Below, in pieces: positions 45,783-64,000 of a DNA stretch of 64,000 nucleotides. This stretch comes from a virus. The notes beneath the pieces are model-generated. The model was not told the origin of the DNA. It was given only the letters and a program-made list of their open reading frames with translations, and made no database searches. Numbering within the stretch: position 1 is the stretch's first letter; each line of letters opens with the position of its first letter. The DNA lies in IMG/VR virus record IMGVR_UViG_3300042090_002405, positions 1 through 64,000 of that record. One strand, 5' to 3'. Position numbers and translations under genes: made by a program.

Positions 45783-47177
45783 TCACGGCGCGGCGGTTGT
45801 ACCGCCGACGTAGAAGGGTGAACCGCCCACGAGCACCTCGAAATAGTGCGTGGGCGCTGTCCCGGTACCGCCGATAGTCTGCCCGGAGAAGTTGACGAGG
45901 CCGCCCGACGTCGCCGCCAACACTAGGTTGCTTCCGCTTGCCGCTGCGAGCTCCAAGATACCGCTCGTCGCGAAGATAGATGCTGTTCCTCCGGCTGACG
46001 CCAAGAAGTATTGACCGCTGCTCGCGTTGAGCTCGAGTTGCCCGGTTGTCTCTAGCGTCGCTACTCCACTCGCCGCCGTGATGAAAACGGTTCCAGTGTC
46101 CGGGGTGAGTGTGATGTTTGTCGAAGACGTCTCGAGCGTCATGCCCCCCGCGCCCGTCGCATCGAGAACTACCGTAGAGCCCGTCAGATGTGCTGCGCCG
46201 GCCGCCGCGAGAAGCAGTGTTGCGTTCGCACCATTGCCCTCCAGCATGAGGTCACTCGACGACGTGAGCGTCTGCGCGCCACTTGTGCCGAGCGTCGTTA
46301 CATCCGTGGATGGGGCCAGAAGGATTCCGCCGCCTGAAGCGGAGATCTCTACAGACAGAGCTGCGTCAATGTCGATGTTGCCGCCCGACGACGTGATCGT
46401 GAGCAGAGCGCCGCCCGTGAGCGTCTCGTTGCCACCTGTGCCGAAAGTCGTCGTGTTGTTGGAGGGGGCGATCGTGATGCCGCCCCCCGCGGTCGAGATG
46501 TCTAGACCGCTGCTTCCGATGATTCCGGGGCCGCCGTTGATGGTGACGGCGCCGTTCGAAAATGTTGTGTTGCCGCCCCCTGGGTTGACCGCGATCGATC
46601 CGGAATTCGTTTCGATCGTGATCTGCGCGCCCCCTAGGGGGGACGACGTGAAAACTGTAAGCGTGTCGTTATCGTTGTTGCCAAGAGTGGCGCTTCCTCC
46701 GCCGAAGCTGTTGCCACCGTTGATCCACGCGTTGGCAGCACCTGCGCCGGTTGCGCCCTGAGGGCCGGTCGCCCCTGTCGTGCCTACTCCCGTAGCACCG
46801 GCCGCGCCCTGCACGCCAGTTGCGCCCTGTACGCCGGTTGCGCCCGTCGCGCCGCCCCCCGGGCCGGTCGGCCCTTGTAGCCCCGTCGCGCCGGTCGACC
46901 CCGCCCCTGTGGCACCCGTCACTCCCGTTGCGCCCTGCACGCCGGTTGCCCCGGCAACACCCGTCGCTCCCGTGGCCCCCGAGCCGGGCCCCGTTGCTCC
47001 CTGGACGCCCGTGGCGCCGGTCGCCCCTGCTCCCGTCGCACCCTGTACCCCGGTAGCACCCGGCGGGCCCGCAACGCCCGTCGCACCCGTTGCGCCTCCG
47101 CCGGCCCCTCCGCCGCTGCTGGGAGGGCTTTCGTAGGTGTTGGGCGACTTATTTTTGATCCCTGCGATAGACCCCAT
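45783..47177 (-). CDS. Tagged collagen-like fibre protein
   Basis: 464 residues. Residues 1-16 ([16 protein letters not shown]) are the shared N-terminal tag. Residues about 25-147 are Gly-X-Y triplets rich in GAT, GVQ and GPT, a trimeric collagen-like stalk. The C-terminal 300 residues are repetitive beta-structure ([15 protein letters not shown]-like units) expected to form a trimeric beta-helix. No signal peptide. GGAG lies 9 nt upstream. Likely a virion or cell-surface fibre; the Thr-rich stalk is a candidate O-glycosylation target. Confidence 0.82.
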
Positions 47178-47205
47178 GGAAGAAACTCCGCGTTGGCTGT
47201 GACGG

Positions 47206-48879
47206 TTAGCGGACCGGAGGCGGTGCCGGGAACGCCGGGTGCGTCACTACCGGAGTCTCCATAGGCGTCGCTGGGTACCTTTCAGGATCGAGCTTCGGCG
47301 GTCGAAGGGCGCGCTCGATCGGATGGTCCAAGAGGAAGCTCGGGACATCCGCCGATTTGATCGTGGGGCCAAGTGGCTGAAGCCCCGGGACGGGATCGCT
47401 TACTCCGACGGGCCCTTGCGGGTAAGGCCCGTACGCTGCGCCCGAAGGCTGGGCACCTCCGCCGTCGAAAAAGTGCCCATGCCTGTGCCCGTGTCCGTAG
47501 TGGGCCGCCCACTGCCGGAGACGATTCCACTTGTCCGATCCGTGCACCGGGGGCCGAGGGCGACCCACGATCGCCTCGAGCCGATGCGCGTGCACGAGGG
47601 GGGCGCCGGGCACCTCGTGGCTCACTCCGGCGAGGGCGGTACGCGCGATGGGCTCCGGGATACCTAGCTTTTTCGCGAGGTCTATGGAGGAGAGCCCCGC
47701 GAGGGCTGGTTGCGATACGAGCGCCGCGGCGGCCTGGTGGGCCAGATCTGCGGCGTTCGCTGGGAGATTTTGTTTCACGTCACGGATGGCGGAGGAAAGG
47801 AGATCATTCGTCTGCGCGCCGAGGGCGTTGAGCACTTTTCCGACGGGGCCGCCGCTAGCCGCGGGGGGAAGGAGCTGGTGGGCGGCGGCGTAACCCTTCT
47901 TCTGGAGGCCTTGTGCTGTCGAGAGCGCCAACCCCGTGTCGAAGGCATGCGAGGAGGCCTGATCGAGCCCCTGCTTCGCAGTCGCGATCTGGGCCAAGAC
48001 GGGACCGGCTGCCCCCTGCGCGGCTTGCGTGAGCTGGTTACCGATGGCGGCGCCTTGCTGGAGCGCTTGCTGGGCCGCCGGCCCCGCGGCTTGGCCGATG
48101 ACCGCCCCAGCGGCGCCCAAAACATCCTGAGGAAGAGGCTTGCCCTCGGCGAGGTTTGCTGCCGCCGTGAGGCCGGAGGTGGCTTCGGGAGGAACGCCTG
48201 CGACCTGAGAGGCGTATTTGGCCTTGTCGCTGAGCCACTGCGTCACTTGCTTCTTTTGATCGAGAATGGCTTGGCCGATGTTCTTGCCGTGGAGCGCTTC
48301 GTCGGTCGCGCCGAGAACCAAAGTTTTTGCGAAGAAGGCGGGGTTGGCCTGCATGTAGCCAGACTTGTACGTCTGCGCGAGGGTGTTCAGGACCTTGTTC
48401 TTCGCGAGGTCCTTACCGATCTTCTTTCCGGCTCCGGTGTGGCCCGCCTCGACGGCGCCGGTGGCCAGGATCGCGGCGGCACCCGCCCCTGGAATAAACG
48501 CCACGGGGCCGACTTTCGTTGCGTCTTGCGCGATCTGCTTGAGGGCTTTCAGTGGCTGGAACTTGAACCCTACCCCTATCGATCCGCCAGCGCCGGAGAC
48601 ACCCGGCGTTCCGGTTCTGCCACTTTCGAGCTTCGTGGCGCGCGCCTGAAGCACGCTCGCCGCCGCGGGGTAGCCAGGCAAGAGTAGTGTCGCAAACGAC
48701 CGTAGCTTCGTCGGATCGGTCTCTTGGTGCGCCGCCGTAAGGACCGCGCTCTCGAGATCCTTCGGCAGGTTCGCGTCGAGGACGGGTTTACTAGAAGCAA
48801 CGATCAGATTCGACGGACCGCTCACGCCGATTTGGAACCCGATCGCCGCTCGGCCGCCCCTAGAGATACGCTCGTGCAT
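47206..48879 (-). CDS. Large Ala-rich structural protein
   Basis: 557 residues from ATG 48879. The central part is helical and Ala/Gln-rich ([20 protein letters not shown]), with a hydrophobic stretch near 130 ([20 protein letters not shown]). The C-terminus is Pro/His/Gly-rich ([16 protein letters not shown]). It resembles phage internal or tail proteins that may cross a membrane, but no family is certain. The 285 bp before its start hold nothing I recognise. Confidence 0.5.
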
Positions 48880-49164
48880 GGGCCGAGCGTACCACGACCT
48901 ACTCGACCACCATCCTGAGAAAATGAGGGGTTCGTGAGCCCGTCCCGGAGAAGTCGGATGCGCACCGCCGTCTTCCCCCGCCTGGTGTCCCGGCGAGCCA
49001 TACGTCGGATGCGGTCTCGACGATCTCACTCTGCCGGGGGTACTTCTCTCGTAGGGCTCATGGAGGACGGTCTCCGTGAGTCGGCTCGCCGAGAGCCCGA
49101 TCGGCTTGGCTGCCCTGTGGTGGGGCGCCAGGCCGTTCGCGTTTCGGCGGTGGTGAGAGCCCAT

Positions 49165-49707
49165 CTAGTTTTGTGCGTACGGATGCTCGCGCCAGTAAGT
49201 CATCGCGCGGCCCATCCTCCGCGCAGATCGGCGCTCGGCGCGCGGCGTGTTCCACGCGAGCCCGTCGGTGTACTCGGCAAGCCACGTACGAGGGTCCGAT
49301 CCGCGACAAATTCGAAAACTTTCTTGCACCATTTCGATCGCTACGCCTGATGCCCCCAGCATGCCCGAGCACGTACGGTCGCGCGACCGTACGGTCTGAA
49401 AGAGACCCCAGGATTTGTTTGAGTCGCCGCCCTTCTTGCACATGGTGACGTCGTCACGAAAGTGACTTTCGTCGGCCGCGATCGCGACGAGGAGCAAACC
49501 CGTCTTTGCCCGCGCCGCGATGGGATCTCGGTCGGCGAACACCGGCTGCACGTACGGCTGGGAGACGGCGAAGGCGATGTCCCGCGCGATGGCCTCGTAG
49601 CGCGCTTCGGTCACTTCTTCGTTCTCGGTCCACCGATGCTCCTCTACGGGAACGAACGTGTGCATCGCGGCAAGAAGCCAGAGTGTGAGGTGTAGGATGT
49701 TCGGCAT
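49165..49707 (-). CDS. Exported lytic transglycosylase-like protein
   Basis: 180 residues from ATG 49707. MPNILHLTLWLLAAMHTFVP is a signal peptide, and AIAADESHFRDD with Glu80 followed by KSWGLFQT matches the SLT/lysozyme-like active site (ES...GLxQ). It would cut peptidoglycan in the periplasm. The AWNTPRAERRSARRMGRA segment fits the end of the domain. Likely an endolysin or virion entry enzyme. Confidence 0.7.
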   Translation of the reverse strand: MPNILHLTLWLLAAMHTFVPVEEHRWTENEEVTEARYEAIARDIAFAVSQPYVQPVFADRDPIAARAKTGLLLVAIAADESHFRDDVTMCKKGGDSNKSWGLFQTVRSRDRTCSGMLGASGVAIEMVQESFRICRGSDPRTWLAEYTDGLAWNTPRAERRSARRMGRAMTYWREHPYAQN

Positions 49708-49750
49708 GACCGGCGCTTCTAGCGCGGCAGAGACCGAAGGCCAACCCGTT

Positions 49751-49948
49751 TCATTCACGGGGCGGCGGTCGCGAGCGCTTCTTCCTTCGCAGGATTGCTT
49801 CGACGAGAAGAGTGCGCACGGCATCTGATCGCGAGACGCTATGAGTTTTCTGGGCTCGTTGCATCTCCTCCGCAATCTCATCGATTTCCTTCATGAGATC
49901 GCGTCCAATACGCAGGCCCAGATGTACACCCGTGTCTTCGTGGCTCAT
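49751..49948 (-). CDS. Ribbon-helix-helix regulator
   Basis: 65 residues from ATG 49948 (or 49966). VHLGLRIGRDLMKEIDEIAE followed by VSRSDAVRTLLVEAI is an RHH fold with a basic end (RRKKRSRPPPRE). Its promoter contains direct repeats between the -10 and -35 boxes, a typical autorepressor arrangement. Confidence 0.7.
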   Translation of the reverse strand: MSHEDTGVHLGLRIGRDLMKEIDEIAEEMQRAQKTHSVSRSDAVRTLLVEAILRRKKRSRPPPRE

Positions 49949-49952
49949 ACCA

Positions 49953-49982
49953 ATATTGTTGCACAAGCTTGCACAATGTCAA
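49953..49982 (-). promoter_or_regulatory. Promoter with embedded operator repeats
   Basis: On the minus strand, TTGACA (49977-49982) and CAATAT (49953-49958) are 18 nt apart. The whole spacer is TTGTGCAAGCTTGTGCAA, two 8-bp direct repeats. A protein bound there would block RNA polymerase, and the downstream RHH protein is the likely binder. Confidence 0.7.
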
Positions 49983-50022
49983 ACAGCATCTAGTATGAGC
50001 GTCGGAGGCGGGACACGAAAAC

Positions 50023-51189
50023 ATGAAAACCCTTCTTTGCGCGACGATGACGGTGTTTGCGGTGGCGACAACGGGTTGTATGGCAGCATCATCGCCATCG
50101 CCATCTCCTGTAGAGGAGGCCACAGGAACGACCGAAGAGGCCGCCACGACGACATGCACGAACGACTCGCAGTGCTCTGGCACCACGCCGTTCTGCACTG
50201 GATTGTCCCTCGCGTTGAACGCGAGCAGCACGACGCAGACCATCAACGGAGAGTCCGTCGCCGCGGGCAACTTCGCCGAGTACATGCCGCAGACGGTCGG
50301 GGAGTGCACGGGATGGTCCACGACTAATTCGCGTGCGTCGCAAGTACAGGGATCCTGCGCAGCGGGGCAGATCTGTGTGAACCTGAATGGCGGAGCTCAA
50401 GGGTCCTGCTACACGACGTGCACGGGATCAGGGCAGGGCACGTGCTCGGCGGGTTTGATCTGCGATTCGAACACGAACGTGTGCTCTACGAACGCGTCGG
50501 CGTGTGCTTCTGGGCTCGCGGTTTTCGGAAGCACTCCGCTTACCGTGACGTCCAAGGCGACCTACTCGGGTGGCACGGTCACCTACGGACAAGAGATTGG
50601 TGGGTCTGCGATTCCCTCGGCGGGGCACTGGGTGCCTGAGGTGTGGGCAACAACCCCGTCTTGGTCGACCAAAATCAAGGTCAACTTCAACATGCAAGGC
50701 ATCTGCACGTGGATCTCGAACAGTGACACGCAAGCGACTTGCACTGCGAGTGACGAGTCTTGGTACGCGACCAACGGCGTCGACGTGTGTTCGTACTACA
50801 CGACGGGTGCTGCCGAGGTCTTCTGCATGGAGTCCGACGTGTTCGGGGAGACGGGCGAGCTCGTCGAGTACAGAGCCCTCACTACGACGACGCCCTTCGG
50901 CGTCACGCAGTCAGCGCTGACTGCCGTGAGCCCGCCCGCTAACTTCACGCTTCCCGCCCGAGGAACCGTTCCTCCCGGTGTGGAGGGTGTAACGGGCTCG
51001 AGCGGGACGACGTGGCAGACACTCGAGGGCCCCGCTGGCACTTCGGGCGGCTATGCCGGATACGGCGGCTATGGCGGCTATGGCGGGGCCGGCGGCTACA
51101 GTGGATATGGTGGTTACGGTATCTACGGCAGCTACGGCGGATACGGCGGGGACTGCGCCTACGGCGGTTGCGGCGGCTTCGGCGACTGA
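50023..51189 (+). CDS. Large lipoprotein with Gly-Tyr-rich tail
   Basis: 388 residues. MKTLLCATMTVFAVATTGCM has a lipobox (TTGC, Cys19). Cys motifs CTNDSQCSGTTPFC and CAAGQICVNLN follow, of the type abundant in myxobacterial exported proteins. The last about 45 residues are GGYGGYGG repeats, likely a flexible or adhesive tail. It is divergent from the RHH gene and its promoter region lies in the same gap. A surface-exposed host-like protein, perhaps acquired. Confidence 0.7.
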   Translation: MKTLLCATMTVFAVATTGCMAASSPSPSPVEEATGTTEEAATTTCTNDSQCSGTTPFCTGLSLALNASSTTQTINGESVAAGNFAEYMPQTVGECTGWSTTNSRASQVQGSCAAGQICVNLNGGAQGSCYTTCTGSGQGTCSAGLICDSNTNVCSTNASACASGLAVFGSTPLTVTSKATYSGGTVTYGQEIGGSAIPSAGHWVPEVWATTPSWSTKIKVNFNMQGICTWISNSDTQATCTASDESWYATNGVDVCSYYTTGAAEVFCMESDVFGETGELVEYRALTTTTPFGVTQSALTAVSPPANFTLPARGTVPPGVEGVTGSSGTTWQTLEGPAGTSGGYAGYGGYGGYGGAGGYSGYGGYGIYGSYGGYGGDCAYGGCGGFGD

Positions 51190-51199
51190 TCCTGAAGTC

Positions 51200-51451
51200 C
51201 TATTTGCAGGGGTGCCCGTCCGTACCCGTCGTCGGGTGCCCCTTGCAGGCGGGACGGCCTGGCCACCACGTCCCGGGTTTCGTGGGGGCAGGTTTGGAAG
51301 CGGGTTTGCCGTTCACGTACTTCGGCAGTCCGGGGCCGCAGTGCGCACAGAACTGGGTTGTCTTGGTAGCCGGTCTCTTCTTGGCCGCCTCGGCGTTACC
51401 GACGGCGGCTACTGCGATAGCGACCGTGAGGGCTAGGATGATAGTTCGCAT
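51200..51451 (-). CDS. Small exported Cys-containing protein
   Basis: 83 residues. MRTIILALTVAIAVAAVGNA is a signal peptide with cleavage likely after AEA. The mature part has CAHCGPG and a Pro/Gly-rich basic body ending DGHPCK. AAGGAAG lies upstream of the ATG. It lies 15 bp after the 1467-residue gene, in the same operon. Function unknown. Confidence 0.65.
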   Translation of the reverse strand: MRTIILALTVAIAVAAVGNAEAAKKRPATKTTQFCAHCGPGLPKYVNGKPASKPAPTKPGTWWPGRPACKGHPTTGTDGHPCK

Positions 51452-51466
51452 TGAATTCTTCCTTCC

Positions 51467-54400
51467 TCACGGGGCCGACGAGTTGAACGTTGCCGTGAAG
51501 ACTTGCGGGTAAATGCCCGGGGCAGTTTGGCATGTGCCTCCCGTGCAAACGTTTGAGGCACAATCAGCATTGTGCACGCACGTGATGCTCTGTCCGACGT
51601 TGGGGACGTTTTGGGTCTGGCAGAGGCCGTTGATGCAAGCGCCAACACCACCAGTTCCTGAGATAGGCGGACAGTCGGTCGAGAGCTCGCAAGTGGATCC
51701 CGTAATGTTGGCCTGGAGTGGATCTAAACCGTTACGGTTATCGGCCCACGTCGTTACCCATTTGCCCCCGCCAACGCCTACTAGTCCGAAGTCATAATCG
51801 CCGATCGTTGTGTTGTATGTCAGGACGCGTTCTGGGGCGGGTGTCTGCGAGCCCGAGCTGATCGTGGTAGTTCCGTGCGGACAAGATCCGCCCGTGCACG
51901 GGGCAACACCGACCTGAAATCCAAATCCGACGATTTGATACTCAAAATCTTGAGTTTGATTTCCGTAATTACACGAGGCCTGACCTGCGCCAGGAAATGG
52001 GGCCGACGCACCGCCAGAGCAGAAACCACCAACGCATTGACTGGTCGGTCCATTGTAGGCGCAGTCTGCGTTAGAGCCGCACGCGCACACTTCAGCGGGC
52101 GATGAACTGGTGGGGGGAACATCTACGCAGTTTGCGCAACTTCCGTTAGGCCCATTGCAGCCGGCGGTGCAATCGTTGTAGCCGAGCGTGGTATTATACG
52201 TACAGCCGATTCCGAATCCTAATCCTGTTGGGATTATGCAATCCACATTGATGCCCAATAGCCCGGTAGCAGGCGGCGTTCCGTTGTTGGTGGTGGGGAT
52301 TTGGGTGCGATACCCGTAGCCCGTGCACTCGTTGAGCAACACGTTGTTGGCTGCTGTGCCGTACCCCTGCGCTAGAACGCACTGCGGGTAGCCGGCGTCG
52401 GGAGCGATCGGGTCTTGGCCAACTCCGGGGGTGAACGGGGCTGTCGGGAGTGCCGTGCCCGCATCGGTGGGGAAATTGACCCTGACTGTCTGGTGAAATG
52501 TCACGGCGGCGTAAATGTTGCTCCCACCGCTGCCTTGTGTGATTGCGATGTTCGATCCGTACTGATTGCCGGAGATCTCTGCGATACCAGATGTGGCCCC
52601 GTAGCCCGTATCGTACGTCGGAACGACGAGCGCTCCTCCGTATGCAGCAACCCCTGCTGTGTAGTTCGTGTTCAGGACTTGTACCGGTTTCGTCGTGGAT
52701 GGGGATATCATTGACGCCCATTCGTCCGCAACCTGCCCCGCTGTAGCGGCAGGCCATTGCCCCGCGACAGCGCGAAGACCACGGTATTGCGTCGCGGCGG
52801 CCTGGTATTGCGCTTGGTTGCACCCAGGTTGTCCGAGCACGCATGTGGACGTGAAAACCGGACGCTCGTACACGAACACGAATTCGCCGGGCGCATTTCC
52901 GGGAGCACCGTTAACGAGCGACGAAACAGAACCGGCCCAATACGGATTGACCGCCATTGACACGCGATACCAATGATTGCCGTTACCGCGAGGAGTAGGC
53001 CCAAGTCCTTCGAACAGGGATCCCTGCAGGGATACCTGCGGGACGAAACCAGACCCTGCCCCGTTTGCTCCGCTGTTGTTGTTCGGATTGCTCGTAAGGA
53101 CGAGGGGGTAAGCAGGATTGCCAAGAGTATCCAAGTCCTTGCCCAGAACGTACGTAGTCCAATCGCTAGCGTATCCGTGATACGGGTTGTCTGAAACGGA
53201 CAGATACCAAACGAGTCCGACGTTTGTAACCTGATCTCTGGTAGACGAAATCGATCCGGGGGCCAGGAACGGCGCATTGCCCGGCAATTGATTGCTCGGC
53301 GCTGCACCGCCATTCCAAACCACAGGATATTGCGCCCCCACGTAGATGAGGTAGATGCGGGGCGCACACGGCTGGGTTCCGTTGCCACATGTAGCCGGCT
53401 TATGGCGCACTGCCATATTCATTTGCCATGGCTGTTGCACCGGCAGGCAATTGCCGTATGTGCCGTTGCCGAGGTTACAGCTATCGAGATTCAAGAAGTG
53501 CAGCCGGTTAGCGTCTCGAGAGCTATTGTAACCGTTGATCGGCGCAACAGACGGGTCTGCGTCCGTCGCAATCGGCGTTTGGTGCACCCCATCGACGGCG
53601 AACTGCCCAGACGGCAAGCATGCGTCCTGTACGAGCCCACACTGCCCTGTCACGGTGTTCGGTGTCGTCACTGCCGAACCCAATGCCAACGTGCCGTTGC
53701 CTCCTCCGGTGCATCCAGTAAAGCTGGTGGCGGTCATACCGGTGCACGTGACGGTTTGTTCGCCCGGAATCCCGGGAGGAGAAGTGTTGACAAGGATACT
53801 TGCGGGCGCTGCGGGGAAGCCGGCGGTCGACGTGACATTGATCGTTGCTTGGGGAAGTCTCTTGCCCGCAGACGCCGCCGCGATTGCCGTAGTGGCGGTG
53901 CCGATACATTGCACGCCCGCACAGCAACGGGTCGCGTTGCTTTTTTGGGACGCTACGCACGTAGATTGCGACGCACCGAATGCGGACTGAACGTACCCAG
54001 CAAAGCTCGGTTGACAACTACCGTTTTGGTCTCGAGATGCAGAGGTCCATTCGTTCCAACCGTTTTGCTTGGTTGCAGAGACGCCCGCTATAGGACCGCA
54101 GTTCGCCGGATCTGGGACAGGAAAGGCGTAAGAGTTGTTGCAGGGTACGCCGTTCAAGCAATGCGGGGGGACGGGTGTAAAATGAAAACTGCCCGTCGGA
54201 TCGACCGGAACCTCTGCGAGATATGGGCCTGCCAACGGGTCAGGTAGCCCTGGATTCCGGATCGAGAACGTGCCCGTATTTTGATATTGGATGGGTTGTT
54301 GTCCTGCGTTTGCAGCATCCCACACCACCTCGAGATTCGCTGGCTGGTTGGGCGTCGGATTGCACCCAGACGTTCCTATGACACACGTGTTACCGTCGAC

Positions 54401-55870
54401 GCGCACCATCGGCGCGTCTGCGATTCCAGCTCCGTAAGTCACGTCGTCCATGAACGATCCCATGGAAACGGTGGCGGAGTTCGTAAAGCTCTTACCACCG
54501 TTTGTGCTGACGGTCAGTGTGATGTCCTGGATGCTGCCGCCAGTGGCAAAATTGGATGCTAAAGTTGCCCAGTTATAGAACCCACCGCCGGCAGCGCTGG
54601 CATTTAGCGTGCCATTCTGGGTTGTCCCGCATACGCCAGTCCCACATGCGTAGTTTTGCGGCCCCGGTGCAGAGATCCCGCACGTTCCGTTAGATATCCC
54701 CGGGCACACTAGACCTTGAGGGCAATCGGCATTTGTGTTGCAACTGAAATTCAAGGATGGAGGCGGGAAACCGGAGCCCAACAACGCAGTTTGCATGTTC
54801 CCGCAAATCGAATTGCATCCACCTGCGAACAGTCCCGATCCGCTACTGAGGCTATCATCGCAGAACTGCTCCGCCGCGGTCCCGTCTTTGCCGTGCGGGC
54901 ATGTCGCATCGGCGGCGGCTTGTGTAGATCCGGTACAGACACAGAAACCGGGGGATGCCGATGTGCATGTCGAAGGGGTACAAGGATCGGTGCCGTCTGG
55001 AGTGCAAAGCATCGTTCCGGGACAATCGGATTGCACGAGACATGTCGGCTCGCCGTAGAGAGATCCGTTTGAGGCACACGTCGGCAGCGTCGGTCCTATG
55101 AGCGGTGCTGCTCCCGCCGGAGGTGGAAACGTTTGGGCCTTCGTCTGTACGTAGCTCGCGATGACAGCAAGGTCGTTGCCGGTATTGCCACTACCCCCCT
55201 TCGTGTTGTTTGCGTACGGGACTGCTGTGATCGTGCCGTTGAACGCAAAATCCCCAAACGCCGCGTTGCTCCCGTGGTCTCCACCAGCACCCCACTTCTG
55301 CGAGCAAGCATTTGCGCCTGCCGTGATTCCGTTGGCAGGACAAGCCCACTGGTAAAAATTTGGGTTGTTGGCCGCTACCGTGCTCGTAGTGGGCCCAGAT
55401 CCGACACTGACCGTAGAGCTCCAGTTCGAGAACGTGGGCCCCGAAGCCGTCAGTGACGCCTCCGAAAAATGCAGTATCTGCGACCCTGAAGCGTTTGGAT
55501 CGCTCACGATCCTCGTCGCGAAGTTATTGACGTACTGCTGACCCCCGCCCTTCATATTCAGGAGCGTTCCGTTGATATCTGCGCCCGAGATGAGCCCCTT
55601 CACGCAACTCGTCGGCGGGGCGCATCCGTTCTGCCCTGCGCCTGTTCCTGGGGGCAGCGTCGGGTCGCACGTAATCCACGAACCGGAGCAGTGGCTGGGG
55701 GTTGTCAGCCACGTATTGCCTGACACCCCCGTGATGAGCGGCCCCGAAGCGCCGAACATCCCCGGCGCGAGCCCCATTCGGTTTCCTGGGCCGGTGTTGC
55801 GACAACACGCCCACACCGCAGCGGCGATGACGAGAAAAGAAGCAGCTAGAGCGGCAATCTTGCGATTCAT
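51467..55870 (-). CDS. Very large exported protein with myxobacterial Cys motifs
   Basis: 1467 residues from ATG 55870, which forms a TGATG overlap with the tagged fibre gene. MNRKIAALAASFLVIAAAVW is a signal peptide with a Cys just after it (possible lipobox AVWACC). The body is beta-rich with STNGGKSFT (Asp-box/BNR-like) and DDVTYGAG units, and many Cys repeats such as CNTNADCPQGLVC, CELSTDC and CVHNADCASNVC. It looks like a surface beta-propeller or adhesin. Its host-type Cys repeats suggest capture from a myxobacterial genome. Confidence 0.75.
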   Translation of the reverse strand: MNRKIAALAASFLVIAAAVWACCRNTGPGNRMGLAPGMFGASGPLITGVSGNTWLTTPSHCSGSWITCDPTLPPGTGAGQNGCAPPTSCVKGLISGADINGTLLNMKGGGQQYVNNFATRIVSDPNASGSQILHFSEASLTASGPTFSNWSSTVSVGSGPTTSTVAANNPNFYQWACPANGITAGANACSQKWGAGGDHGSNAAFGDFAFNGTITAVPYANNTKGGSGNTGNDLAVIASYVQTKAQTFPPPAGAAPLIGPTLPTCASNGSLYGEPTCLVQSDCPGTMLCTPDGTDPCTPSTCTSASPGFCVCTGSTQAAADATCPHGKDGTAAEQFCDDSLSSGSGLFAGGCNSICGNMQTALLGSGFPPPSLNFSCNTNADCPQGLVCPGISNGTCGISAPGPQNYACGTGVCGTTQNGTLNASAAGGGFYNWATLASNFATGGSIQDITLTVSTNGGKSFTNSATVSMGSFMDDVTYGAGIADAPMVRVDGNTCVIGTSGCNPTPNQPANLEVVWDAANAGQQPIQYQNTGTFSIRNPGLPDPLAGPYLAEVPVDPTGSFHFTPVPPHCLNGVPCNNSYAFPVPDPANCGPIAGVSATKQNGWNEWTSASRDQNGSCQPSFAGYVQSAFGASQSTCVASQKSNATRCCAGVQCIGTATTAIAAASAGKRLPQATINVTSTAGFPAAPASILVNTSPPGIPGEQTVTCTGMTATSFTGCTGGGNGTLALGSAVTTPNTVTGQCGLVQDACLPSGQFAVDGVHQTPIATDADPSVAPINGYNSSRDANRLHFLNLDSCNLGNGTYGNCLPVQQPWQMNMAVRHKPATCGNGTQPCAPRIYLIYVGAQYPVVWNGGAAPSNQLPGNAPFLAPGSISSTRDQVTNVGLVWYLSVSDNPYHGYASDWTTYVLGKDLDTLGNPAYPLVLTSNPNNNSGANGAGSGFVPQVSLQGSLFEGLGPTPRGNGNHWYRVSMAVNPYWAGSVSSLVNGAPGNAPGEFVFVYERPVFTSTCVLGQPGCNQAQYQAAATQYRGLRAVAGQWPAATAGQVADEWASMISPSTTKPVQVLNTNYTAGVAAYGGALVVPTYDTGYGATSGIAEISGNQYGSNIAITQGSGGSNIYAAVTFHQTVRVNFPTDAGTALPTAPFTPGVGQDPIAPDAGYPQCVLAQGYGTAANNVLLNECTGYGYRTQIPTTNNGTPPATGLLGINVDCIIPTGLGFGIGCTYNTTLGYNDCTAGCNGPNGSCANCVDVPPTSSSPAEVCACGSNADCAYNGPTSQCVGGFCSGGASAPFPGAGQASCNYGNQTQDFEYQIVGFGFQVGVAPCTGGSCPHGTTTISSGSQTPAPERVLTYNTTIGDYDFGLVGVGGGKWVTTWADNRNGLDPLQANITGSTCELSTDCPPISGTGGVGACINGLCQTQNVPNVGQSITCVHNADCASNVCTGGTCQTAPGIYPQVFTATFNSSAP

Positions 55871-57525
55871 CACGCGACCTCGGTGTAGCGGTTGACACAT
55901 GAAATGTGCAGCGTGACAGGCACAGCAGTGGCTGGCGCCTGTGAAATTTGAAAGAGCAATGTGCCCGTGAAGGTGCCATCATCGAGTGCCTGGAAAAGCC
56001 AGTTCCCCGTCGCCGGCTGCGCGCCCGCTGTTCCCGTCGTGGTCGTCACAGCGATCTGCCCTGGCGGTCCTGCGACGGGGAAGATGATGGGGCCCGAACC
56101 GGGCCACGAGCACGATACGGTCGTCTCGAAGGTCGCGAAATCGGCGTAGCTTGCGGAGGTGGCTGTGGTGCTCGTGGGGCCGCTCGTGAGTGCTGCGCCA
56201 TTGGCGAATGGAGCGGGGGTTGGCGTGCCGGTAAAAGTCAACGTTCCCACCGCGGCCGACGTCGGCGCGATCGTCGCAGAGTTCGTCCCATCCGTGACGA
56301 CATCCCCGGGCGCGAACGCCGGGCCCGTCACGGCGCCAATGCTGATCTCATTCTGCACCTGCCCCTGCGCGACGACGGATATATCGAGCAGATAGGCCTT
56401 CCCGGCCTGGAGCTGAAACGGCCCCGGGGTCGTCCCCGACGCCAGATTAGAGGCGGCGCCGGTGTTGGTGCCAAGAAACGGCTGATCCGAGAACTGTGCG
56501 TCGCCCGGGACCGAGATGGCCCCGCCCGCGAACGCGCGCTGCGTGCTCCGCGTCGCAACGGCCTGATAGCCAGCCGCTTCTGCCGCGTCTGCGCGCGCCT
56601 GGCACTCGATGCCCCGCGCAAACGCGGCGCCCATGTTGACGGAGATCGCTACGGACTGCCGGCCGAGCGCGACATCGCCCGGCGGAAGCCCTGAAACAGG
56701 GGGTGCGATAGAGCCGGCGATGCAGTTGAAGCCCGCGACGAAGGCGTAAGCCGAGTTGGCTTGACAGGAGCCGAATGCCACGCCCCACGAGCTCAGGACG
56801 GACGCTTGAGGGCCGTACGCGAATCCGCCGATTGCGGTCGGAGCAACAAAGCTGCCGTTGCCGCCTGCAAACGAGTTCTGCCCAGCCGCGATGTTCTGAT
56901 TCCCACCTGGCACATAGGCGCCCATGCCGGCGGCGATGTTTCCGATTCCGCCCCCCACACCCGATGCGTACCCCGTGGCGGAGTTCTTGAGGCCGCCGGC
57001 AACGGTTGCGTACGCGCCGACAGTAGGATCCAAGAAGATCCCGCTCGTAGCTGTCGCGGTAGCCCCCGACAACACCCCTTGGAGGGAATCGCCGCTGCTG
57101 ATGGTCCCGCCGGTCACCCCCGCAAGGGTCAGGACAGATCCGGTATCGCTCGCGACAACCGCACTGGCTCCGGAGGTTAGATCGTTGACCGATTCACCGA
57201 CCTGAAAGGTACCGGTAAGAAGATCGTAGCTGACAGTCGCGGCGCCGGCTTGGTTCTGGTCACCGCCCCCTATCGTCGTGTAGTTCGCCGTTGCGCCGGG
57301 GTTCACCCCCGATGTGTCATTGCCCGCAGAGAAGATCCCCGTGGCGTTCGGGTTGACGGCGCTGTTCGTCCCACCGTTGCTACGGTTAGACTGAATGTCG
57401 ACCGCCCCGGAGACGGTGTTGAAGACGAACGGGAGCAAGCCGATAACCCCCCCGCTGCCTACCGCCGGCGAAATCGGATAGGTGATCGGAGACTTGTTTT
57501 TTAGTCCAGCGACTACGGCAACCAT
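55870..57525 (-). CDS. Tagged fibre protein with YadA-like head
   Basis: 551 residues. MVAVVAGLKNKSPITYPISP is the N-terminal tag. Residues about 165-240 (YATVAGGLKNSATGYASGVG and repeats such as NIAAGQNSFAGGNGS) match the 14-residue left-handed beta-roll repeat of YadA-type trimeric heads. The C-terminal part is beta-rich and may be a receptor-binding domain. No signal peptide, so export, if any, depends on assembly. GGGAG lies 8 nt upstream. TGATG coupling to the large exported protein. Confidence 0.78.
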   Translation of the reverse strand: MVAVVAGLKNKSPITYPISPAVGSGGVIGLLPFVFNTVSGAVDIQSNRSNGGTNSAVNPNATGIFSAGNDTSGVNPGATANYTTIGGGDQNQAGAATVSYDLLTGTFQVGESVNDLTSGASAVVASDTGSVLTLAGVTGGTISSGDSLQGVLSGATATATSGIFLDPTVGAYATVAGGLKNSATGYASGVGGGIGNIAAGMGAYVPGGNQNIAAGQNSFAGGNGSFVAPTAIGGFAYGPQASVLSSWGVAFGSCQANSAYAFVAGFNCIAGSIAPPVSGLPPGDVALGRQSVAISVNMGAAFARGIECQARADAAEAAGYQAVATRSTQRAFAGGAISVPGDAQFSDQPFLGTNTGAASNLASGTTPGPFQLQAGKAYLLDISVVAQGQVQNEISIGAVTGPAFAPGDVVTDGTNSATIAPTSAAVGTLTFTGTPTPAPFANGAALTSGPTSTTATSASYADFATFETTVSCSWPGSGPIIFPVAGPPGQIAVTTTTGTAGAQPATGNWLFQALDDGTFTGTLLFQISQAPATAVPVTLHISCVNRYTEVA

Positions 57526-57553
57526 GTCTTATCTCCCTGTCCTATTTCCTATT

Positions 57554-59161
57554 TCAGTTGGCCAGATTGCAGAGACTACCGCCGCCCTCGACCCATAGGC
57601 ACCCCAGCGTGGCGCCCAAGTTGGAGTCGGCGTTAGCGGCGCTCGCAGTGATGTTGCACGTAAGCGTGGGTGATGCGACAGTAGGTACCCCCAGACATGC
57701 TTTGGTCTGACCGTTTAGGGTGATCCCGCCAGTCTCTAGAAACGTTGCGGCGGCCTCGCCAGCTCCGGACGGGTAAGTCACGTGGCCGTTCGATGTAACG
57801 CCTAGGGTCCCTGTGCCCCAAAGGAACGGCCCCAGAGTGGGAAACGAGTCGGAGCTGTTGAGGTTCAGCGAACCGTTTACGGTGAGGGTCGATCCGTCCA
57901 AGTACGCGGTGCCGAGGATCCCGCCGCTGACGTTGATGAGATTCCCGTGGCCCTGCGCGAAAATCACGTCGTTCGTAAATTGTCCATAGTTTGGCGTGAT
58001 GTTGTACGAGTTCCCGGTGCCAAAAAAGCCCGCTGAATAACAAGTGCCAGACGCCTGTAGGCCTGTGACAATAGACGTATTCGAAAGAGGGCCGCCATAC
58101 GACGGCAAGACGCCGCCGAGGATTGCCGAGTTGATGAATCCATTTCCTACGAGAGGGCCGGCGTTGGGCGTTGCCACGTAGACCGGATAGTTGCTCGTAC
58201 TCTCGACGAATTCGGTAGCGGCACCGATAGTAATCCCGGCGAAAACATTCGTCGTCGTCGGCGTACGCACGCCGATGTTGTAAAGAACGAGACCGTTCGC
58301 GAAGGTTGATGTGCTCTCGCCTTGCACTACGGCTCCGGCTGTGGCGATGTTGATTTGCGGCGTCGAGTTGATCGTGACGGTGTCCCCCGTCGTCCATACG
58401 TCTTGCTCTTGCGGATTCTCGCAGTTCTTGAGCTCCGGCGGGGATATTGAGATTGCGCTTGCCGTCTGGCTCATCAGCCACGTCGTGCCAGACACTAGCT
58501 TGTAGAGCCATCCTCTAGAGGCATGCGTTGAGTTGATGACGAGTAGCCCAGGTGAAAGAGAGCCCGCATCGGCACCAGCAAAGGTCACCTCGAGAAGCTG
58601 CGGCGTAGATCGGTTCTTTGCGGCCACGACCGTGATGGTGGTCGTCTGCACCGTAGTAAGGGCCCCTTCGAGAAGAACGCTTGCACCCGATTCGAGGAAG
58701 TACGGCCCCACGTACCATACGTCAGAGTCGCTCGTGTTCGAACTCATCGCCTTGATCGTCGTGTTCTGCCGGATGCGCGGGCTCATCGTGCCCCATCGCG
58801 CAACGATCTGCGTATACGAAAGGCAGGGGCCGTCGGCGATCCCGGGAATCCCCGACGTGCACGTCGACTGTCCGCACGTGACATTACCGTCGCTCGCGCA
58901 TCCGGAGGTATTGCTGGGATCGACGTACCATGCCGCCTGGCTCCAAGAGCTCGGGCACGTAGGTGCCCCGCCATCACCGGGAGCTGTCGAGCACAGAGGG
59001 GGAAAAACAACAGGGGGCGGCAGAGCGTTTGCCGCACCGAACGTCTGGCCATTCGCGCCGGCCGCAGGGGCAGTTTCGATGGCGGTACGTTGGCCGTAGA
59101 TGCTCACCACCAAGGCGAAGACAGCGCACCCCAGAACGAAAAACGAAAACTTCTTCGACAT
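57554..59161 (-). CDS. Exported beta-helix-like protein
   Basis: 535 residues. MSKKFSFFVLGCAVFALVVS is a signal peptide or anchor. A Cys-rich region near residues 60-110 is followed by repeated strands (NIATAGAVVQGESTSTFANG and on) typical of right-handed beta-helix proteins. The ATG forms TGATG with the preceding tagged gene (59161-61617). Probably a surface protein acting with its tagged partner. Confidence 0.7.
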   Translation of the reverse strand: MSKKFSFFVLGCAVFALVVSIYGQRTAIETAPAAGANGQTFGAANALPPPVVFPPLCSTAPGDGGAPTCPSSWSQAAWYVDPSNTSGCASDGNVTCGQSTCTSGIPGIADGPCLSYTQIVARWGTMSPRIRQNTTIKAMSSNTSDSDVWYVGPYFLESGASVLLEGALTTVQTTTITVVAAKNRSTPQLLEVTFAGADAGSLSPGLLVINSTHASRGWLYKLVSGTTWLMSQTASAISISPPELKNCENPQEQDVWTTGDTVTINSTPQINIATAGAVVQGESTSTFANGLVLYNIGVRTPTTTNVFAGITIGAATEFVESTSNYPVYVATPNAGPLVGNGFINSAILGGVLPSYGGPLSNTSIVTGLQASGTCYSAGFFGTGNSYNITPNYGQFTNDVIFAQGHGNLINVSGGILGTAYLDGSTLTVNGSLNLNSSDSFPTLGPFLWGTGTLGVTSNGHVTYPSGAGEAAATFLETGGITLNGQTKACLGVPTVASPTLTCNITASAANADSNLGATLGCLWVEGGGSLCNLAN

Positions 59162-61617
59162 CATTGCAGTACCCACGCTGTGCCTGTGTAGTAGAGGGTC
59201 GCGCCCCCACCGGCGGGGATAGACGCGAGAGCGCCGGTGCCGGCATCGAGGACGGTCAACGTGTTTCCGGAGTCATCGGTCCGCGTGATCCGTAGTGTCT
59301 GCGCAGCAGGCCCGGAGTCGAGAAGCGTGATTGTCGTGTTCACCGCAAGGGACTTGACGGTGTACCAGTTGCCGCCTTGCGTGTAGCCGGCGGTCGCGCC
59401 CGCACCGGTGATCGACAAAGACACCGCACCGCCCGCGGGATTGTTGATTGCTGCGCCTGGGACAGGCCCTGCGAGGTAGCCGCCCACTACAACCACGACA
59501 ACGTTGGCCGAGTAGCTCCCGCCTTGAGCGATAAAGGTGAGCCACGATTGGCCGTCGAATGTGGCGACGGTGCCCGGCGCTCCTGACAGCGCAGTCGCCT
59601 CTTCGAAACGCGTTCGATAGAACGTGAACTGCGTCGCGACGAGGCTAGGCGAGTCGATCTGGCAATCGTCGTAGGTCTGCGTCGTGGTCGTCGTGATCGC
59701 GACGGTGTCCAAAACAGAGCATCCCGAGACGGCCTGGACGCTCCCACATGACAAGTTGGTCGAGACCCAATTCACGTCATTGGAGAGTCCTAGCTTCCAC
59801 GTGGGTGACGCGCCGGACGTGACGACGAGCTGGGTGTCGTTGTTCTCCACGAGGAGCGCAGAGAAGTTCGTTGCGCCGGAAACGTTCAAGGTGCTGTTGA
59901 GAAGCTCGCCGTCCTTGAGGAGGAGAGCGCTTTGGCACGAGCCCGGACCGTCAGTGACGGTCATCGCCATCTCGTTGATGGCCAGTGCTTCAAAAACGAG
60001 GAGCGCTTGCGAGGGGATAAACGCCGTGACGCCGTTGGCCCAATTGACCGTCAAGCCGGTCATCATCACGGGCCCCGTGAATGTCGGAGCCGCGGGGAAA
60101 TTGGTCGAAGTGATCTGGATCGATCGACATGGAGGAATCGTCCACGTTTGTGGATCTGGGTCCCACACGTCCGCCGCGGTAGGGGCTATCGATCCGACCT
60201 CGAACGTGGCCGCATCGTCAGCACTCGTCGGATCCCCTAGCGTCGCAAGCCACGCTTCGGGACTAGAGTACGGGGCGCTCTCGGTGCCGTTCTGAAAAGC
60301 CGCCGGCACGAGGGTATTGCCGTCGATCCAACGAAATCGCGCAAGAGGGACCGCGCCGCCGCCATCCGAAGACTGCCCAAAGATCTGAAGAACCCAATGG
60401 CCGCTTTCAAAATATACTACGACGCTCCCAGGCCCCGTCAGGGTGATAATCGTACCGCTGCCAGCATCTAGGATTTGGAGCTCAGCGCCCTCCGTATTGT
60501 CGGTGCGCGTAAAGCAGATCGTGTCTCCTGGATCGGCGGTGTCCGCCACCGTGATGGTGGTAACGCCCTCCGCAAGGGTTGGGATGGTGTACCAGTTGCC
60601 GCCCTGTTCGTATCCCGACGAAGCACCGGTGCCGATGATCGAAACGGTCACCGATTCCGTAATATTCGCGCCGGGTACTTGCCCCGCGAGAAAGCCGCCC
60701 GTGACAGCGACGATCGTAGAGCCGTACGTGCAATCCGCGTCTTGAAACGCCTTCCACGAGATGCCGTCGAACTCCGCGGTGGGCGCGGAGAGTACGCACG
60801 CTTGTGACCAACTCGTCTGGTTGAAAAAGCACTGCGCCCCCGCCGTTAGACCGGGCGCGCCGATAGACGCTCTCGTGTAGTTCTGGTTGCCGCTCGTCGT
60901 GATCGTACCGCTGTCAGAGACGATCGAATCCTCTGCCTGCAACCCCGCGCAGGTTAGGTTCGTAGAGCTCCATTGACTCCCCTCTTGAAGCGTGAGCGAC
61001 CACGTCGGAGTAGCGCTGGACGTTACTTGCAGCTGCGCTTGGGTGCCGCTGATGTCGAGAATCTCGAAAAGAGCCGCTCCTGTCACGTCGAGCGTGCCTT
61101 GCAGGTTGCTGCTACCGAAGATCAACGCAGATGGGGCGGATCCAGCCGCGTCCGTGATCGTCATCGTGAGGCCGGAAATGTTGGCGTTCTCGACGATGAA
61201 CGTGGCGATCGTGGGCACGAACGCCGCCGGGGCGTTGTTCCAATTGATTGTCAGTGGTGCGAACGACGGCGCCACCATGTTGAACGCCATGAGGATGACG
61301 TTTCGGCTACTGGGTACAGTCCACGTTTGCGGATTCGGACTCCACGCATCCGCTGCAGCCGGGGAGATGACGCCTAGCTCGGCTGTCGATGCGTCGTCGG
61401 TGCTCGTCGGTGCGCCCAGCGTGTTGAGCCATGCCTCGGGGCTTTGGTACGGCGTCCCGGGTGCGCCGTTCTGCATCGCAGGCGCGACGGTCGTGTACGC
61501 GTCGATCCATCGTAGCCGCTTCAGCGGAACGTCCGAGAAGGGACCGGAGCCGCCCATGCCCAGCGACCTCTCGTAGGTGAGAGGCGATCGATTCTTGATG
61601 CCGAGAATAGAGCCCAT
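59161..61617 (-). CDS. Tagged protein with two tandem domains
   Basis: 818 residues. MGSILGIKNRSPLTYERSLG is the N-terminal tag. A domain of about 400 residues is repeated: LKRLRWIDAYTTV with SPEAWLNTLGAPTSTDDAST in the first copy and LARFRWIDGNTLV with SPEAWLATLGDPTSADDAAT in the second. Both contain a beta-helix-like middle (TVPSSRNVILM and TIPPCRSIQIT) and a closing QGGNWYTI/V motif. GAGGGAT lies before the ATG. No signal peptide. It likely forms a trimeric spike. Confidence 0.8.
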   Translation of the reverse strand: MGSILGIKNRSPLTYERSLGMGGSGPFSDVPLKRLRWIDAYTTVAPAMQNGAPGTPYQSPEAWLNTLGAPTSTDDASTAELGVISPAAADAWSPNPQTWTVPSSRNVILMAFNMVAPSFAPLTINWNNAPAAFVPTIATFIVENANISGLTMTITDAAGSAPSALIFGSSNLQGTLDVTGAALFEILDISGTQAQLQVTSSATPTWSLTLQEGSQWSSTNLTCAGLQAEDSIVSDSGTITTSGNQNYTRASIGAPGLTAGAQCFFNQTSWSQACVLSAPTAEFDGISWKAFQDADCTYGSTIVAVTGGFLAGQVPGANITESVTVSIIGTGASSGYEQGGNWYTIPTLAEGVTTITVADTADPGDTICFTRTDNTEGAELQILDAGSGTIITLTGPGSVVVYFESGHWVLQIFGQSSDGGGAVPLARFRWIDGNTLVPAAFQNGTESAPYSSPEAWLATLGDPTSADDAATFEVGSIAPTAADVWDPDPQTWTIPPCRSIQITSTNFPAAPTFTGPVMMTGLTVNWANGVTAFIPSQALLVFEALAINEMAMTVTDGPGSCQSALLLKDGELLNSTLNVSGATNFSALLVENNDTQLVVTSGASPTWKLGLSNDVNWVSTNLSCGSVQAVSGCSVLDTVAITTTTTQTYDDCQIDSPSLVATQFTFYRTRFEEATALSGAPGTVATFDGQSWLTFIAQGGSYSANVVVVVVGGYLAGPVPGAAINNPAGGAVSLSITGAGATAGYTQGGNWYTVKSLAVNTTITLLDSGPAAQTLRITRTDDSGNTLTVLDAGTGALASIPAGGGATLYYTGTAWVLQ

Positions 61618-61644
61618 GGATCCCTCGTTCGCCCGCGCTTGGCC

Positions 61645-62148
61645 TCAGACGCTCACGACTTCGACGGTAAGGCGCGCCGACGGCGAAACGGAAGGCGGTT
61701 TACCCAAAACCGTCGCGCTCGTCGCTCCGTCCTGACAAATCGCGTCGAGTTGCACCGTGTAACTACCTGTCGAGGTCACCGGCACTTCGAAGACACGCGT
61801 GACGGTCTGGCTCGGCATGATAATCGTCGAGTTTTCAACACCGTCCTGAATAACCGGAGGTCCGGGGGGTTGAGATATGAATATGCCCGTGAAGATCGTC
61901 CCATTTCCAGCGATGGAGGTGTAATTGACCGTCGCATGGACGATGATCTTCTGCCCTGCGGCCGCAAGGATCCCAGTGATCGTCACGAGGGGCGTATCGA
62001 CGGAGTCGCTAACCGTGATCGTGTCCGCCCCGTTGTCCCCGTAGTACGTCGCGACGAGTCCCGGCGGTACCGCCATCCCCGAGCCCACGGCGGGAGATTG
62101 CTCATAGGTGCTCGGGGAGCGATTTTTGGTGCCTGTCAGGTAGCCCAT
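61645..62148 (-). CDS. Tagged beta-rich protein
   Basis: 167 residues from ATG 62148 (AAAGGAT upstream). MGYLTGTKNRSPSTYEQSPA is the N-terminal tag, here shortest and clearest, joined to a single beta-sandwich-like domain (TITVSDSVDTPLVTITGILA and on). It is the smallest member and the best one for defining the tag. Confidence 0.75.
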   Translation of the reverse strand: MGYLTGTKNRSPSTYEQSPAVGSGMAVPPGLVATYYGDNGADTITVSDSVDTPLVTITGILAAAGQKIIVHATVNYTSIAGNGTIFTGIFISQPPGPPVIQDGVENSTIIMPSQTVTRVFEVPVTSTGSYTVQLDAICQDGATSATVLGKPPSVSPSARLTVEVVSV

Positions 62149-62279: not shown

Positions 62280-62756
62280 TTATCCCGGGTACGTAAGAAC
62301 GACTCCAACGTCCGTGACATCTGCTCCCGCAACGGTCCCGGGGTTGTTGGAGATCGGGCTCAAGAGACTTGCGCCTAGTGGGAAAGTCAGCACGGTGACG
62401 TTGTACGGAGAGCCGTTCGGCAACGGGTCAGAAAACGTGAACGGGCCGTTTGCAGTGAGTGTGAGATCGTCTCCGCCGTTGATCTGCAAAACGAGCGGAC
62501 CTGTCCCGGTGTCGTATCCCGACAACGTGCCCCCCACGGTGAACAGGTCAGCCGCCACTACGGAGGCGCGTAGCGAGATCGCTTGGTCTTTCGGCCGCGA
62601 TGCGTTCGACCATCCACTGTACTCCGTGTCGTAAACCGAGCCTGTGGCGACGAAGTTCGCGAATTCGCGGTACACTGCCTCGTCCATGAGCTGGCGCGAG
62701 CAGCCGTTTTCGCTAGCGCCTCCCTTCGCGCGAAGCGTGGTCAACTTCCTTCTCAT
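62280..62756 (-). CDS. Beta-rich hypothetical protein
   Basis: 158 residues from ATG 62756, which overlaps the stop of the DUF1360-like gene (ATGA). A helical N-terminus (MDEAVYREFANFVATGSVYD) precedes Ser/Thr/Gly-rich beta strands ending GVVLTYPG. Untagged. Probably another structural component of the same module. Confidence 0.55.
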   Translation of the reverse strand: MRRKLTTLRAKGGASENGCSRQLMDEAVYREFANFVATGSVYDTEYSGWSNASRPKDQAISLRASVVAADLFTVGGTLSGYDTGTGPLVLQINGGDDLTLTANGPFTFSDPLPNGSPYNVTVLTFPLGASLLSPISNNPGTVAGADVTDVGVVLTYPG

Positions 62757-63043
62757 GACACTTTCTCCTCTTCGCCCGGGTCTCCGAGCAGCTTGAGCAA
62801 AACCGCATCTGCTAGCAGCGCAAGAAAGCTCGTCGCCGCCCCTACGACCGCTGCGTCCCCTATGCGGCCGAATCCTACGGTGACAATCCCGCTCGCCCCC
62901 GCCGCTGCCCCAACCCATGTACCGGTGCACTGACTGCACTCGAAGAGGGCCGGGAAAAGCCGTCGGATCGGACGCGCGATCGTGCTGCGCACGACGAGGA
63001 GCGTCGCGCCGATCAGCGCGGAGAGGAGGAGGATCGAGGTCAT
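62753..63043 (-). CDS. DUF1360-like membrane protein
   Basis: 96 residues. Two or three membrane helices with FECSQCTGTWVGAAAG, which matches the CxxCxxxWVG core of DUF1360 phage membrane proteins. ATGA overlaps at both ends. Function unknown. Confidence 0.65.
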   Translation of the reverse strand: MTSILLLSALIGATLLVVRSTIARPIRRLFPALFECSQCTGTWVGAAAGASGIVTVGFGRIGDAAVVGAATSFLALLADAVLLKLLGDPGEEEKVS

Positions 63044-63233: not shown

Positions 63234-63779
63234 TCACCTTCTCCTTCCGCCGCCGCCGCCGCCCGAGAAGACAGCGCCCATCGCCAAAAACGCAGCGACA
63301 CCCACGCCACCCAGAACGAGCGTGCTCTTCTTGAGAAACCACGGCGAGGGCTCCTCGATCGGTGCCGCTGGTGCCGCCTGTGCCGTCGCGACTGGCGCCG
63401 CAGAGGGCCCGTCCGCGGCCGTACCGCTGTCAGCCGGATGCGCCTTCGATTGCGTGTACTCGTGCTTTGAGCTGCGCTTCGCCGTTACGATTCCGCCGCC
63501 GCAATTGCTCTGCCCATGCCCCGCCCACCACGATGGTCGCGGATGGCAACCTGCCGGGGCACCCGGGGATACAGCTTGCGCGGCCTTTGCCGTGGACGCG
63601 CCGTACTTTCCATCGGGCGTGAGCCCCGCGGCCGTCTGGAAGTTGCACACGAGCTGCACGTTCGCGAGGTCGCACGGATCTACCTGTGCGAGTGTCATGG
63701 CGAACGCTTGCGATGAGCCCGTGTCGTCGCCGATCCCGACGGCGCGGACCGCGCGCCCGTTGTACCGAAGAGAGAACAT
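63234..63779 (-). CDS. Peptidoglycan-binding-like protein with membrane anchor
   Basis: 181 residues from ATG 63779 (TGATG with the upstream gene). VQLVCNFQTAAGLTPDGKYG followed by ASTAKAAQAV matches the PG_binding_1 fold (FQ...GL..DG.YG..T). A Pro/Ala linker leads to LKKSTLVLGGVGVAAFLAMG, a C-terminal membrane helix, and a Gly/Arg end. It may link the cell wall to the membrane in lysis or entry. Confidence 0.65.
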   Translation of the reverse strand: MFSLRYNGRAVRAVGIGDDTGSSQAFAMTLAQVDPCDLANVQLVCNFQTAAGLTPDGKYGASTAKAAQAVSPGAPAGCHPRPSWWAGHGQSNCGGGIVTAKRSSKHEYTQSKAHPADSGTAADGPSAAPVATAQAAPAAPIEEPSPWFLKKSTLVLGGVGVAAFLAMGAVFSGGGGGGRRR

Positions 63780-64000
63780 CAGCGCCAAGCCTTCGCAATA
63801 GTCGCAGGTAATGCGGGTGCCGCCGAGGGCGCGGCTCGATGTCCGTGCGATCTCGATCCGCCCTTCTTTCGGGCCATGTGAACGACACCCGCAACGAGTG
63901 CAACTCCGGCCAGCCCGATCCCCACCTTGGCCGGCGTGCTGAGATTGCGGAACTTGTCGAGCGCCGACGAAGCGGACGGTGGCACCGGGGAGGGAGCCGC
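63779..64000 (-). CDS. Small membrane protein, possibly cut by the window edge
   Basis: KVGIGLAGVALVAGVVHMAR is one membrane helix flanked by basic, Ser/Ala/Pro-rich ends. A GTG at 63985 could start it, but the frame stays open to the edge, so it may be longer. TGATG coupling to the peptidoglycan-binding-like gene. Confidence 0.45.
   Translation of the reverse strand, partial: AAPSPVPPSASSALDKFRNLSTPAKVGIGLAGVALVAGVVHMARKKGGSRSHGHRAAPSAAPALPATIAKAWR

Follow-up and report, generated by a model that had tools for sequence, protein, structure and literature searches.

A short N-terminal tag shared by unrelated spike-like proteins of soil viruses from an apparently undescribed family

Why should four proteins whose bodies have nothing in common begin with the same few residues? 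The question is raised by the window analysed here, bases 1-64000 of an 81,287-base IMG/VR virus record (G000), in which a preliminary description had noticed the motif G-x-K-N-[KR]-S-P-x-T-Y at the start of four proteins. A six-frame scan of the window recovers the motif at exactly those open reading frames (ORFs), with four copies, each in the first residues of a minus-strand ORF, and no fifth; trinucleotide shuffling of the 81-kb record yields the full motif in none of 300 trials. The motif does lie within the first 20 residues, as had been claimed, although the tag itself is longer, spanning about residues 1-25, with [IVL]-x-G-x ahead of the quoted motif and often an S-P-x-V-G-x-G linker behind it. 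The tags, located by motif scan and by a tag HMM, and the proteins that carry them are as follows:

62080..62148, minus strand: tag MGYLTGTKNRSPSTYEQSPAVGS of the 167-aa protein
61645..62148, minus strand: tagged protein 1 (167 aa), with a beta-rich body for which no homologue was detected
61549..61617, minus strand: tag MGSILGIKNRSPLTYERSLGMGG of the 818-aa protein
59161..61617, minus strand: tagged protein 2 (818 aa), in which the tag precedes two putative beta-helix-like domains of ~400 aa
57454..57525, minus strand: tag MVAVVAGLKNKSPITYPISPAVGS of the 551-aa protein
55870..57525, minus strand: tagged protein 3 (551 aa), whose repeats look YadA-head-like by eye
47109..47177, minus strand: N-terminal tag of the 464-aa protein
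45783..47177, minus strand: tagged protein 4, 464 aa, collagen-like, matching tail-fibre PHROGs

The four bodies had been called unrelated, and BLASTP indeed detects no homology between them; nor does a simple hydropathy test find a signal-peptide-like hydrophobic stretch in residues 1-40, in agreement with the earlier reading. The 818-aa protein consists of two tandem copies of one ~400-residue domain, which recurs in tagged proteins of eight relatives, where it reads 'FIDGDT..PFKTI', a start of beta-helix-like character from which a beta-helix-like fold is inferred. Residues 31-161 of the tagged, YadA-like 551-aa protein have a partial homologue in one relative (L008) that carries no tag. 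Untagged genes lie within the same interval (51467-55900, 57554-59176, 47206-49164, 49165-49881 and 50023-51189). Those at 57554-59176 and 51467-55900 (minus strand) encode large proteins whose N-termini bear hydrophobic segments resembling a signal or anchor, and some 15-30 bases of each gene are shared with the end of the tagged gene before it; the product of 50023-51189, on the plus strand inside the tagged cluster, is lipoprotein-like, with a lipobox-like TTGCMAASS.

The exact motif proved too narrow a query, with only four chance matches across IMG/VR outside this record, all internal or in very short ORFs; a wider tag was nevertheless found among relatives, which encode several proteins each with related starts (for example MSHIVGRGRYARETYPSPP, MSKIAGLKGRSPETYPDP and MGYLTNSKRKSPEVYP) beside a conserved block containing a 449-aa protein. 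The window motif is a local dialect of this general tag, whose pattern is approximately M-x-x-[ILV]-x-G-[RK]-(basic)-x-T-Y-P. An HMM built from 38 N-terminal starts and run on every stop-to-stop ORF gave approximately 90 matches above 11 bits, all at start codons, with a reversed-sequence control reaching at most 8.4 bits. The seeds had been picked as N-termini, and the independent evidence comes from matches beyond the seeds and from a collection-wide scan for DNA encoding GRGRYAxETYP in all of IMG/VR, in which the capsid-type gene was not used and no start codon was required. That scan returned 22 stretches with 23 matches, and a start codon stands five residues before the G in 23 of 23; all of the contigs belong to this virus family except one (L070), which has five tags and several genes in common with the family and no 200-aa gene in its 53 kb. 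Taken over whole related IMG/VR records, the tag HMM marks 103 places in 22 of 24, including four in the window's record, with two to nine tagged proteins per record in those 22 and a tag of ~16-25 residues at the extreme N-terminus. Internal occurrences never rise above background. The tag is marginal in one relative (G012) and absent from the 29 kb of another (G001) whose 449-aa protein is 78% identical, and tag peptides compared with INPHARED gave only chance matches (E about 8-9).

Preferences by position are pronounced among 75 tags: G in 73, I/L/V two residues before it in 58, R after it in 50, E and T ahead of Y in 47 and 52, and P after Y in 63, with at least two basic residues in 74 and a consensus of IxGRGRYARETYP. 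The 75 tagged proteins, from 17 genomes, fall into 37 body clusters by BLASTP, a number that may be an overcount because BLASTP misses distant homologues, and body types include collagen-like, jelly-roll and beta-helix-like forms. Each of the two largest clusters has 17 members. The first holds proteins mostly of 160-240 residues, usually the product of the first tagged gene; the second is the beta-helix-like protein, whose domain begins at about residue 29, directly behind the tag, in some cases, and after collagen-like repeats in two very long proteins (from position 1,104 of 1,870 residues and from 841 of 1,858). At least one tagged ORF is not spike-like (54 aa, with a hydrophobic segment), and some tagged genes are located well away from the conserved block or are encoded on the opposite strand. 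With the tag on such varied bodies, and a YadA-like homologue lacking it, tag and body therefore act as independent modules.

The first body cluster was modelled with AlphaFold2 from 16 rows, using the protein of a relative (L017) and not one from the window. The model (pLDDT 86) has low confidence over residues 1-28, followed by beta strands, and predicts a beta sandwich behind a disordered tag, although the low confidence of the tag may reflect either disorder or merely the shallow alignment. In a Foldseek search of the PDB the C-terminal domain of BclA ranks first, and the best 50 matches include TNF-family ligands, ExsFA/BxpB and the complex of ExsF with a leader peptide (9h3d), at TM-scores of about 0.43-0.65; viral matches are mostly phage and giant-virus proteins with collagen and C1q.

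The tag is probably the N-terminal docking peptide of interchangeable virion spike proteins, and the proposal of a common docking or sorting site for a short conserved tag on variable display-type domains survives as the best reading. In the host cytoplasm, the tagged proteins would form trimers by way of their collagen, jelly-roll or beta-helix parts, and the N-terminal strands of the trimers would be bound during assembly by one common virion site, on a vertex or capsid protein. The hydrophobic [ILV]-x-G, the basic residues and T-Y-P would likely slot into an inter-subunit cleft, by analogy with the exosporium leader in ExsF or FNPVYPY in the adenovirus penton base. With one common socket, each virus could therefore carry or exchange many receptor-binding heads.

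Two known systems may resemble the tag in the way they work, though not necessarily by descent. The exosporium leader peptide of BclA type docks into a cleft that lies at the interface of the ExsF trimer (PMC11952670; PDB 9h3d), and in the BclA / F-Anchor system of the Bacillus cereus group, too, it is collagen-like display proteins that carry a short peptide at the N-terminus; C1q/TNF-type domains are shared as well, the widespread tagged body being nearest to the BclA, ExsFA and BxpB folds. The BclA-type architecture is represented in part, with tag plus collagen in many proteins and tag plus a BclA-like fold in one cluster, and many tagged proteins have neither. In contrast to the F-Anchor, the tag reads MxxIxGRGRYARETYP, and the leader of IGPT..LPPI type is absent from all 75 tags; unlike the exosporium leader, it lies in a virus record, not among spore genes, and on many unrelated bodies. 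The analogy with BclA that had been drawn at the outset accordingly holds, because of the Foldseek matches, for fold and architecture and not for tag sequence. The adenovirus fibre tail, FNPVYPY, which sits in a cleft between penton-base subunits (PMC8156859), is also a conserved short N-terminal peptide with a Y-P element, and it fixes a trimeric spike to the particle, as is proposed for the tag; it differs in that an adenovirus carries a single fibre type or a few, every one of them shaped as a fibre, and FNPVYPY does not occur in the tags, which have T-Y-P.

Tailed-phage tail fibres also combine a constant N-terminus with variable receptor-binding bodies, although their N-termini are folded domains on a tail, whereas the tag is a peptide of 16-25 residues in records where no terminase or portal was found. 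A collagen-like stretch is shared with P5 of the tectiviruses PRD1 and PR772, a spike with a C-terminal knob from bacterial viruses that have no tail; the PR772 spike, collagen-like motif and knob, is attached via a folded base (PMC6750898), and P5 differs from the tag in being held by this folded N-terminal base domain, as a heteropentamer with P31. No sequence relation to P5 was found.

Further evidence comes from variation of the tag between viruses. On unrelated bodies, tags are more alike within a genome (likeness 0.573) than between genomes (0.510; 0/2000 permutations), and the virus of the window is an extreme case of such a dialect, at 0.64 within and 0.31 between. This pattern would be expected from co-evolution with a virus-encoded partner, and also from copying within the genome. 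Identical residues of the tag core use the same codon in 46.9% of comparisons within a genome, compared with 45.2% expected from codon usage; recent copying of tags is disfavoured because of this result, and the randomised codons point therefore to selection on the peptide, not the DNA.

A signal for export or cell sorting, which would send these proteins to a secretion machine or the host envelope instead of the virion, would account for the N-terminal position and the basic residues, and hydrophobic or lipoprotein-like N-termini are encoded beside the tagged genes; however, a hydrophobic core is present in none of the 75 tagged proteins, twin-arginine anatomy is absent by inspection (no RR followed by a hydrophobic stretch), and virus-specific dialects are more easily reconciled with a partner encoded by the virus than with an export machine of the host, which leaves this explanation rather unlikely.

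It must also be considered whether the records are viral. The 449-residue orphan protein (record 67789-69138) leads to 27 IMG/VR loci at 64-78% identity, and proteins of 449, 200, 333 and 289 residues are common to all 27, with several more in most. The conserved block is placed as follows:

record 63779-64648 (window part 63779..64000), minus strand: 289-aa conserved protein, opening the conserved orphan block
record 64908-77598, outside the window: rest of the conserved orphan block
record 64908-69138: strongly conserved 449-, 200- and 333-aa orphans, with homologues in loci L008-L034

For the proteins of 449, 200 and 333 residues, searches of Pfam, PHROGs and PDB sequences gave nothing convincing; the 449-residue protein has no match in INPHARED, PLSDB or GTDB, nor has the 200-residue protein in GTDB, where the two were used to look for a host. 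From conservation and gene order, the three are inferred to be structural, capsid-type proteins, and the 449-residue one is a candidate double-jelly-roll major capsid protein. Genes for a family A DNA polymerase, D5-type primase, Dda-like and SNF2 helicases, integrase-family proteins, RNA ligase and a CDP-alcohol phosphatidyltransferase are present in the record, and LysM, peptidoglycan-binding and transglutaminase-like proteins are common to the records, together with the orphan block. The polymerase lies in a single ORF (14289-17939, minus strand) that also matches uracil-DNA glycosylase and contains an intein-like insertion with an HNH endonuclease. A GIY-YIG homing-endonuclease-like gene sits between two conserved structural-type genes in some members only (record G000 65873-67084, minus strand; L009; L021).

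Searches for the terminase large subunit in 23 records gave one weak match, which proved to be an SF2 helicase-like ORF (G008), and those for portal and Terminase_6N in 14 records gave none; control genomes score in these searches, and the related records may be incomplete. An FtsK-type ATPase (PF01580) gave one sub-threshold match in 10 records. The baseplate attachment suggested earlier is improbable, as the searched records yielded neither a terminase nor a portal, and nothing observed points to a surface layer; a tail-less virion is plausible, with the proviso that the records may be incomplete.

Plasmid-like or integrative elements that show surface proteins on the host cell would likewise have no detectable terminase, portal or known capsid gene, and would fit the integrase-family matches and the NikA-like matches found alongside them. 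All of the records are nevertheless classed as viral in IMG/VR, they combine the conserved orphan block with LysM, peptidoglycan-binding and transglutaminase-like proteins, they encode polymerase A, D5-type primase and helicases, and searches of PLSDB plasmids and of GTDB genomes matched nothing; a non-viral origin is accordingly unlikely, and the tag-bearing records are apparently large dsDNA viruses from soil, belonging to an undescribed family. No description of the tag or of the family was found in the open-licence literature.

That the four genes are diverged paralogues retaining the N-terminus alone is very improbable. Tags are alike within a genome and two body families occur as tandem copies in some relatives, as paralogy would predict, yet the bodies are of differing type (collagen repeats, jelly roll, beta-helix-like) and fall into the 37 clusters, and the profile of the first cluster meets the 167-residue protein of the window weakly and at residues 1-23 alone, its body aligning not at all; for the four window genes paralogy was rejected from BLASTP and profile comparison. 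A DNA or RNA element at gene starts (a recombination or shuffling site, or a translation signal), to which swappable bodies behind a tag might point, can be set aside, being contradicted by codon choice at the level of random usage and by an upstream identity of 0.27 within genomes, equal to background.

Short N-terminal docking peptides are known singly, in adenovirus fibre and BclA, whereas the present family of viruses apparently relies on one peptide code for an entire set of spikes that are unrelated to one another; what is apparently new is an unusually wide cargo range for a short N-terminal tag, in a virus family that seems to be undescribed. If the docking reading is true, receptor-binding proteins of uncultivated viruses would be recognisable from their first 20 residues, and the exchange of spikes without capsid redesign would be explained. 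The findings also point to a large virus lineage for whose conserved, presumably structural proteins the searched libraries offer no counterpart. A broader picture is offered tentatively, as one that may well fail: undescribed large tail-less bacterial DNA viruses with one capsid socket for many spikes, in which further tags (R-x-G-x-x-V-x-G-F-[GA]-L-G; MRRKL..SRPRDQAISLR) would sort other virion proteins.

Glycosyltransferase and glycosyltransferase-like genes (43319-44530 and 45122-45775, minus strand) lie beside the tagged collagen-like gene, and a CDP-alcohol phosphatidyltransferase-like gene is found at record 78726-79160 (plus strand; placed there from the gene's sequence); these genes possibly serve spike-glycan and lipid modification. 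Two further N-terminal modules occur:

record 77756-78715 and 79136-80026, plus strand: second tag (HMM)
record 63779-64648, minus strand: second tag, internal (HMM)
L021 17560-17874, L023 16258-16563, L024 15661-16014, L029, L035, L065 and others: second tag
window 62280..62939, minus strand: gene with a third conserved N-terminal module (MRRKL..ASRPKDQAISLR), neighbour of the tagged genes

The second tag, distinct from the first, reads about E-[ST]-[IV]-x-x-G-G-R-x-V-x-G-F-[AG]-L-G and most of the proteins bearing it have a hydrophobic segment that resembles a membrane helix; its HMM gives 46 distinct matches above 10 bits, 42 of them near a start codon, with a reversed control of at most 8.9 bits. 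The third module, which reads MRRKLKNLKNKSGHSENGAPRQLIDEAxYRE..YDSEYSGWSxASRPRDQAISLR, is carried by the window, L008, L010, L014, L029, L030, L041 and L070. The protein at 62280-62939 could be a partner of the tagged proteins or a separate anchor. The module is usually a stand-alone protein of ~70 aa, but it is joined to collagen-like repeats in the L070 protein and, in the window, to a body rich in beta structure.
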